From an uncultured Selenomonadales bacterium (GTDB taxonomy: Bacteria; Bacillota; Negativicutes; Selenomonadales; Selenomonadaceae): a stretch of 64,000 nucleotides of DNA. How positions within the stretch are numbered: the first letter of the stretch is position 1; each line of letters opens with the position of its first letter. Shown here piece after piece: positions 36,521 to 37,942 of this stretch. The translations under genes and the position numbers were made by a program. The stretch lies in the NCBI GenBank assembly GCA_900315155.1, contig OMYB01000008.1:1-64000 (forward strand). The letters are read 5' to 3'. The notes beneath the pieces were generated by a model. That model was given only the letters and a program-made list of their open reading frames with translations, ran no database searches and was not told the DNA's origin.

Positions 36521-37321
36521 ATGCATCAGTATCTTTTCTACATGGGAGACTTTCCGATCCGCTCGTACGGACTCGTGCTCTCCCTCTCCATCATCCTCGC
36601 AACCGGCGTCGCCTATTTCCTCGCCAAGGCAGACGGACGCGGCTATGAGAAACATATCGTCGACCTTGGGATCTACTGCGGTGCGGCGGGCCTGCTCGGC
36701 GCGCGGCTCTGGGATGTGTTCTTCTTCGACTGGGATTATTACGGGAATCATCTCACCGAGCTCCTGAACGTCTGGCAGGGCGGCATGGCCATCCAGGGCG
36801 GTGTGCTGCTCGGCGTGCTCACCGGGGTATGGTACTCCCAGCGGCACCACCTCGACACGATCCATTTCCTCGATGTCACCTGCCCGGCCATCGTACTCGG
36901 GCAGGCACTCGGCCGCTGCGCGAACCTGCTGAACGGCGACGCGTTCGGCGCACCGACGGGCACATCCTACGGCATCGTCTATCCGGACACGACGCTCGCG
37001 CACATGACGTACGGCAGTCAGCCGCTCTGGCCCGCAGAAATCTGGGAAGGCCAGCTCGACATGGTCATCTTCGCCATTCTGCTGCTCTACCGCAGTTTCC
37101 CACATATCAAAGGACAGGCCTTCGCGCTCTACGTCATGCTCTACTCCGTCGCACGCTTCTTCCTCGAGTACCTGCGCGGCGACTACACAGCCCCGGTCCT
37201 CGGCCTCTTTCACAGCGCGCAGATGACAAGCATCGCCATGTTCACGCTCGCCCTCGCAGCCTACCTCCTGCTGCCGCTCTGGTACCGGAGGAAAAGCGGG
37301 AAAAATGGCGTCCAATCTTGA
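36521..37321 (+). CDS. lgt: Prolipoprotein diacylglyceryl transferase
   Basis: 266 residues, seven membrane segments. It attaches diacylglycerol from phosphatidylglycerol to the lipobox cysteine of prolipoproteins. Visible are FPIRSYGLVLSLS near the N-terminus, GARLWDVFF, the Lgt signature GRCANLLNGDAFG with Arg and Asn conserved, and VARFFLEYLRGD late in the protein. Two usual residues differ: the GGxxxHGG histidine is Gln (GGMAIQGG), and the Glu at the end of the signature is Asp. AGGAGG lies upstream of the ATG. Confidence 0.93.
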   Translation: MHQYLFYMGDFPIRSYGLVLSLSIILATGVAYFLAKADGRGYEKHIVDLGIYCGAAGLLGARLWDVFFFDWDYYGNHLTELLNVWQGGMAIQGGVLLGVLTGVWYSQRHHLDTIHFLDVTCPAIVLGQALGRCANLLNGDAFGAPTGTSYGIVYPDTTLAHMTYGSQPLWPAEIWEGQLDMVIFAILLLYRSFPHIKGQAFALYVMLYSVARFFLEYLRGDYTAPVLGLFHSAQMTSIAMFTLALAAYLLLPLWYRRKSGKNGVQS

Positions 37322-37347
37322 CGCACCATAACGGGAAATACTATAAT
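37318..37347 (+). promoter_or_regulatory. Promoter of the SpeD-like gene
   Basis: TTGACG (overlapping the lgt stop), 18 bases, TATAAT (37342-37347). It leaves a leader of about 70 bases before the ATG. Confidence 0.65.
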
Positions 37348-37424
37348 AAAAGGTATGAAATAAACGGAAGCGCCCCGCACGGGGTATTGGAAAAACAGAC
37401 AACGTATCGATAAAGGAGCACGGC

Positions 37425-37883
37425 ATGAAAATTTTAGCCCGTCAGCTGACGGTAGACCTCTACAACTGCAAGAACAGCAAGCTCAACGACAAGGAAGCCA
37501 TAGAAGCTACGCTCGCCAGCATCGCACAGGAACACCAATTCAAGGTCCTGCACGCCTACGCTGCCGCCATCAGCGAGGACCATTTCTGCGCGATGCTGCT
37601 CTGCCAGGAAGGGCACATCGGCGTGCACGTCTACACGGATCTCAAATACGTCGCCATCGACCTCTTCATCTGCGACGAAAATGCGAATCCCGAGGAAATC
37701 TTCCGCACGATCCGCAAATTCTTCAAGCCGGACAAGGTCCGCACGACCTTCCTCAAGCGCGGCGACTTCGGCTCGAACCGCGATGCCCGCCCGAAAATCA
37801 AGAACCGCATCGCCCCCGTCCGCCGCATCCGCAACACCGGCGCCAAAGTCGTCCGCATCCTCGCGCGCCGCAACAAAGCCTAA
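37425..37883 (+). CDS. S-adenosylmethionine decarboxylase-like protein lacking the pyruvoyl serine
   Basis: 152 residues. The first 115 follow the prokaryotic AdoMet decarboxylase (SpeD/SpeH) fold: LTVDLYNC, the block QEGHIGVHVYTDLKYVAIDLFIC, and FKPDKVRTTFLKRG. In active enzymes the block reads ESH, and the serine becomes the pyruvoyl cofactor by self-cleavage. Here it is Glu62-Gly63-His64 (codons GAA GGG CAC), so self-processing is impossible. His68 and Cys83, which assist processing and catalysis in the family, are kept in register. A 37-residue tail is strongly basic (about 13 Arg/Lys). GGAG precedes the ATG. The protein is unlikely to be a decarboxylase; function unknown. Confidence 0.8.
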   Translation: MKILARQLTVDLYNCKNSKLNDKEAIEATLASIAQEHQFKVLHAYAAAISEDHFCAMLLCQEGHIGVHVYTDLKYVAIDLFICDENANPEEIFRTIRKFFKPDKVRTTFLKRGDFGSNRDARPKIKNRIAPVRRIRNTGAKVVRILARRNKA

Positions 37884-37888
37884 AAACG

Positions 37889-37942
37889 CATACGAAACAG
37901 CCGCAGGCCCGATTCTCATCGTACCTGCGGCTTTTTTCGTAT
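37889..37942. terminator. Bidirectional terminator after the SpeD-like gene
   Basis: CAGCCGCAGG pairs with CCTGCGGCT and is followed by TTTTTT; outer arms CATACGAAA / TTTCGTATG extend the stem. It also serves the convergent ctpA gene. Confidence 0.85.

Follow-up and report, generated by a model that had tools for sequence, protein, structure and literature searches.

A class-wide, tail-bearing SpeD family of Negativicutes, without the pyruvoyl-forming serine in Selenomonadaceae, is best read as a pseudoenzyme

We analysed a stretch of 64,000 nucleotides from an uncultured Selenomonadales bacterium (the window), in which a short gene lying behind lgt encodes a SpeD-like protein with a basic C-terminal tail. 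Reading the open reading frame, we find an ATG start at 37425 and a TAA stop at 37881-37883, which give a product of 152 amino acids. The features of the locus, with the evidence for each, are the following.

37318 to 37347, forward strand: sigma-70-like promoter TTGACG-18-TATAAT, overlapping the end of lgt (promoter scan and sequence)
37412 to 37418, forward strand: Shine-Dalgarno-like AAAGGAG, 6 nt 5' of the ATG (sequence)
37425 to 37883, forward strand: tailed SpeD-like gene, 152 amino acids plus stop (Pfam, NCBIfam, 1TLU alignment; orthologues)
37425 to 37769, forward strand: SpeD-fold core, residues 1-115 (AlphaFold models; 1TLU, Z 17.2)
37611 to 37613, forward strand: GGG codon for Gly63, at the site of the pyruvoyl-forming serine (1TLU alignment; invariant Gly in 84 genes)
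37770 to 37880, forward strand: conserved basic tail, residues 116-152 (class-wide conservation; predicted structure; net charge)
37899 to 37939, no strand assigned: terminator-like inverted repeat AGCCGCAGG...CCTGCGGCT followed by T6 (read from the sequence)

An earlier, sequence-only reading of this DNA had given the gene its own promoter behind lgt. The promoter-like site bears this out, matching the consensus at 11 of 12 positions, where shuffled sequences lead us to expect 0.3 such sites, and overlapping the lgt stop codon. The inverted repeat sits between the SpeD-like gene and a convergent S41 peptidase gene; having a loop of 16 nt, beyond the limits of our terminator scan, it was found by reading the sequence. 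An Rfam search returned no RNA or riboswitch at the locus. Many orthologues (L007, L012, L025 and others) have GTG or TTG as their start codon, a possible sign of low or controlled expression.

Searching Pfam, we found that residues 8-113 of the window protein match AdoMet_dc (E 6.7e-25). The NCBIfam equivalog TIGR03330, which has a cut-off of 75.65 bits, scores the protein at 81.2 bits, enough for automated annotation to call it adenosylmethionine decarboxylase. This equivalog lets through a sequence that lacks the pyruvoyl serine, and many Negativicutes genomes are therefore probably misannotated with AdoMet decarboxylase.

A gapless alignment to the SpeD of T. maritima (1TLU) places His68 and Cys83 in register, and Glu62 and His64 likewise. 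Pfam, TIGR03330 and this alignment thus agree with the earlier claim that the SpeD/SpeH fold is kept. The self-cleavage site had been read as Glu62-Gly63-His64, and the alignment sets exactly these residues opposite Glu-Ser-His. With Gly63 at the position of Ser63, the pyruvoyl cofactor cannot form by the known route, as had been proposed. The window protein also carries Cys55, Ile49, Thr71 and Asp72 instead of Ser55, Phe49, Pro71 and Glu72, which we take to be AdoMet-facing or processing residues in characterised enzymes. Because the defining serine was tested for and is absent, the window protein, judged by its sequence, does not count as a functional member of the AdoMet decarboxylases.

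A missing serine, taken alone, might also come from a pseudogene in decay or from misreading of the GGG codon. We found orthologues in 181 of 189 Selenomonadaceae genomes, nearly always in single copy. Residue 63 is Gly in all 84 distinct genes, through 27 GGG, 25 GGT, 20 GGA and 12 GGC codons; residue 64 is His in all 84, and His68 and Cys83 are each present in 80. The median pairwise dN/dS is 0.08 (57 pairs), and column entropy is 0.5-1.1 bits in the tail (residues 101-151) vs 2.4 bits in core residues 21-50. Since Gly63 is invariant, is written with four synonymous codons and lies in a gene with this low dN/dS, we conclude from the alignment that Gly63 itself is under purifying selection in Selenomonadaceae. 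A sequencing error at GGG, which the earlier reading had allowed for, is nowhere indicated and is ruled out by the 84 genes and their four Gly codons. Decay is contradicted by the purifying selection, by retention across the class and by the synonymous variation at the Gly codon; the frameshifted tail of one relative (L198) speaks for it, and we find decay or error hardly credible. In contrast to its close relative L197, L198 (genome G028) shifts frame in the tail, past about residue 106; this reflects either a faulty assembly or an unusual case of tail loss.

Searching the whole class with a profile that includes the tail, we obtained matches, mostly full length, in 237 of 250 sampled Negativicutes genomes. 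Among about 290 genomes from the other classes of this phylum, the matches listed end at profile position 113-126, which is the natural end of ordinary SpeD. The listed matches that pass position 126 do so only through stop codons, and none of those listed from the other classes contains the tail without internal stops. In some families the tailed form occurs beside an ordinary short SpeD (L095-L102), and this coexistence marks the tailed form as a separate lineage. Phage and plasmid collections contained no good relative; transmission thus looks vertical, and a mobile origin was rejected on the same ground. A few near-complete genomes (G202, G280) are without the gene, which is therefore not essential everywhere.

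The tail follows the consensus KPxKxKTTxIKRGDFGSxxDMKPKxKxxxAPLRRVRNTGAKVxKxLxR, with a T, R112, G113 and P123 (window-protein numbering) invariant in the representative set. The family is recognised by a SpeD core followed by a basic tail with RGDFG-x3-D(M/I/A)-(K/R)-P-K, and the window protein carries both; its basic tail of 37 residues (116-152) is present as first described. The median net charge is +12 for the tail (about 48 residues, from residue 104) vs -5 for the core. A tail of this charge could have RNA, DNA, membrane or an acidic protein as its partner. It resembles no known domain in Pfam (no match better than 0.11) and has no credible match in the PDB, and when 21 genomes were searched with a profile of the tail alone, no second carrier turned up.

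We then compared position 63 over the class sample. Ser occupies it in 32 tailed rows and Gly in 55, the rest having Cys, Ala, Thr, His, Phe or Val. Ser63 is found in the deepest tailed branches and in five ordinary SpeD outgroup rows, so Ser is likely ancestral. A quick tree with many weak branches, built with column 63 excluded, requires nine Ser/non-Ser changes. Forcing all non-Ser rows into one clade was rejected (p-AU 2.6e-6); a shared Ser-to-Gly origin for Selenomonadaceae and families f2, f5, f17, f6 and f10 was not (p-AU 0.495). On these trees the serine has been lost more than once in the tailed family, and Selenomonadaceae and the families just named could share one Ser-to-Gly event. 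Within Selenomonadaceae Gly63 stands in 84 of 84 genes, but Glu-Gly-His is not a single clade across the class. Residues other than Ser and Gly (Cys, Phe, Thr, Val or Ala) stand at position 63 in L173, L183, L184 and L188 (f25), L158 and L186 (f35), and L167, L174 and L175 (f4). A Cys or Thr there could in principle still undergo the acyl shift, and the deep-branching members with Glu-Ser-His could still be able to process.

Other active-site residues change along with the serine. Phe49 is retained in 9 of 66 rows without Ser63 vs 21 of 32 with it, Pro71 in 43 of 66 vs 32 of 32, and Glu72 in 17 of 66 vs 22 of 32; because the rows are related, p values for these differences come out too small. 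His64, His68, Asp79, Arg112 and Pro123 are kept in the rows without Ser63. Over the whole class sample, His64 is almost invariant and an aromatic residue is kept at 70. As far as the alignment tells, the enzyme pocket has decayed, whereas the scaffold, the histidine-aspartate cluster and the tail have not.

The sequence-only reading had offered a non-enzymatic paralogue or an enzyme with new chemistry. The frame was right, and its non-enzymatic half fits much better. The word paralogue does not fit a family that is spread over Negativicutes and is defined by its tail, not by Glu-Gly-His; the gene is no local paralogue. A non-pyruvoyl chemistry, using the cavity or His64, His68 and Cys83, could explain why His64 is almost invariant and Cys83 frequent. 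It would also suit those Selenomonas-like genomes that have SpeE and no serine-bearing SpeD as a source of decarboxylated AdoMet. However, Cys83 is gone in 34 of 98 rows, position 63 tolerates seven residues besides Ser, and the protein is retained in genomes without SpeE. We consider such chemistry very unlikely, and the tailed protein probably has a non-catalytic job.

We also checked the polyamine genes of the same genomes. In the window genome (completeness 99.8%), the SpeD-like gene is the sole PF02675 match. The second SpeD with Glu-Ser-His and the speE that the earlier reading had envisaged were looked for in this genome, and both are absent: there is no PF01564 match for SpeE and no TIGR03331 match for a class 1a SpeD. 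Carboxynorspermidine decarboxylase (NspC) likewise has no credible match there, the best reaching 29 bits where the cut-off is 409. Of the 250 Negativicutes genomes, 166 carry a class 1a SpeD and 201 a SpeE, and the tailed protein persists whether or not these are there. The near-complete genomes G173, G174, G184 and several of f15 have it and neither SpeE nor another SpeD. Going by gene content, the tailed protein is independent of SpeE.

These counts bear on whether the tailed protein might, in the manner of a prozyme, activate a catalytic SpeD of its own cell. In trypanosomes the prozyme, itself a dead AdoMetDC paralogue, activates its partner in this way (PMC5201418, PMC6221367), and a class 1a SpeD is available in the 166 genomes just mentioned. 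In the window genome, G173, G174, G184 and several f15 genomes, however, the tailed protein is the sole PF02675 member and there is no speE, so activation of this type is not its general role. It could operate in some lineages; as an account of the family it strikes us as highly improbable.

In three Selenomonas-like, near-complete genomes (L206, L208, L212; genus g22), SpeE adjoins an arginine decarboxylase of the AAT fold, and in L212 also a carboxyspermidine-dehydrogenase-like gene. We found no serine-bearing SpeD, class 1a or 1b, in these genomes.

The gene neighbourhood varies by lineage. Reading the translated sequences ourselves, we identified lgt, CobT-like, FabK-like, flavoprotein, RecD2-like, rubrerythrin and carbonic anhydrase genes as neighbours, with no conserved operon across the lineages compared and no operon link to polyamine genes. 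Only in the window's own genus and in Selenomonas-like genera does lgt adjoin the gene. Polyamine linked to peptidoglycan is true of the class in general (PMC10628300). The earlier reading had built on this link, and it fares poorly here: with varying neighbours and only local lgt adjacency, the peptidoglycan-polyamine argument is unsupported by gene context. In genus g11 (cluster c1, with L061 and 43 further loci), a protein of roughly 690 amino acids is encoded after the gene and reads like two CobT-like domains in tandem.

Building AlphaFold2 models from 40 and 72 relatives, we obtained mean pLDDT values of 84 and 86, with about 90-97 in the core and 56-80 in the tail. The tail is predicted to form a strand (124-129/130) and then an amphipathic basic helix at about 138-149. 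The best fold match is 1TLU (Z 17.2, rmsd 2.0 Å over 117 residues), and the S63A non-processing mutant 1TMI matches the model core with Z 17.0. Two human domains, the N-terminal one of spermine synthase (3C6K) and the C-terminal half of AdoMetDC, follow with Z about 11-12; being AdoMetDC-like domains without the cleavage site, they are a precedent for the fold as a non-catalytic module.

On our best reading, the tailed protein is a SpeD pseudoenzyme, conserved and non-pyruvoyl, that depends on its tail to function. More specifically, a Negativicutes-specific, SpeD-derived family would work without the pyruvoyl cofactor, its core serving as a scaffold and its basic tails serving an anionic partner, which we give about an even chance. 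The core would be a folded scaffold, probably dimeric as in T. maritima SpeD, that presents the tails to this partner; the old active-site cavity may still bind a small ligand, and control by such a ligand is possible. The exact conservation of the tail (the T, R112, G113, P123 and RGDFG..DMKPK) points to a specific macromolecular site and favours RNA or the ribosome over membrane. RNA or the ribosome is thus the most likely partner; the alternatives are a membrane surface and a protein. The moderate pLDDT of the tail (56-80) and the uninformative gene context are points against this explanation.

If the partner is the membrane, the protein would be a peripheral membrane or envelope protein, anchored at the inner membrane face by its amphipathic basic C-terminal helix. 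The final helix has a hydrophobic moment of 0.44 vs 0.28 in shuffles, and tails often end in sequences resembling K-V-F-K-F-L-S-R. Among the genomes and matches listed, the family is found only in a diderm class, and lgt adjoins the gene in Selenomonas-like genera. Yet lipid binding needs no strong sequence-specific conservation of the mid-tail, lgt adjacency is not conserved, and some long, lysine-rich tails (f4, f25, f35) show no clean helix. We judge this membrane role unlikely.

A more specific form of the pseudoenzyme explanation, and the idea of the earlier reading, is a ligand sensor: the old cavity would bind AdoMet, polyamine or a related amine and so switch the action of the tail on nucleic acid or protein. 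Retention of His64, His68, Asp79 and the aromatic residue at 70 without catalysis would suit it, and the dead prozyme paralogue has putrescine bound between its sheets (PMC5201418). It is weakened by the decay of F49, P71, E72 and S55, by persistence of the protein with and without speE and class 1a SpeD, and by the failure to find a riboswitch or an operon link to polyamine genes. We hold it doubtful, though less so than the membrane role.

As a tentative history, an ancestral tailed SpeD may have gained a regulatory role in binding RNA, ribosome or membrane, its activity then being lost several times in parallel, and the class may now depend on a second role of the SpeD fold that needs no catalysis, as an amine- or AdoMet-responsive regulator. 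The gene is near-universal in Negativicutes, the class of Selenomonas, Veillonella and Megasphaera, and curated equivalog models call it AdoMet decarboxylase. Since that label falls on a protein unable to make its cofactor by the known route, predicted polyamine pathways of gut and rumen Negativicutes would be partly wrong. The natural series from Glu-Ser-His to G, A, C, T, V or F at position 63, with one constant tail, makes it testable how an enzyme family abandons catalysis, and makes the retained function of tailed SpeD testable as well. If the tail does bind RNA or ribosomes in response to amine or AdoMet, this would be a new kind of regulator.

In the open literature searched, we found no description of a serine-less SpeD in Negativicutes and no class-wide family of dead SpeD proteins. 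Compared with class 1b SpeD/SpeH (T. maritima 1TLU/1VR7; 1TMI), the window protein shares the fold, His64, His68 and Asp79, and Cys83 is common to both. Unlike them, it lacks Ser63 and Ser55, has an altered AdoMet pocket, carries a conserved basic tail and occurs in a genome without a SpeE partner. SpeDA and SpeDC are SpeD-derived arginine and ornithine decarboxylases, homologues that likewise moved away from AdoMet decarboxylation and often occur without SpeE (PMC10407285). They are enzymes that form the pyruvoyl group from Ser63 (PMC10407285), whereas the window protein has no such serine and is excluded from being one of them. The SpeD-SpeDC fusion of Victivallis vadensis also includes a bacterial SpeD-type domain that lost the self-cleavage residues (PMC10407285), but it is one fusion protein, while tailed SpeD is a stand-alone, class-wide family. 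The trypanosomatid prozyme resembles the tailed protein as a dead AdoMetDC homologue kept by selection (dead here to judge from the missing Ser63), but is the obligate partner of an active AdoMetDC, which the window protein does not have. The 3C6K domain and the C-terminal half of human AdoMetDC are, like it, AdoMetDC-like domains without the cleavage site; they differ in being parts of larger proteins, with 10-18% identity and no polybasic tail. The predicted tail strand (124-130) does have a counterpart in the C-terminal half of human AdoMetDC.
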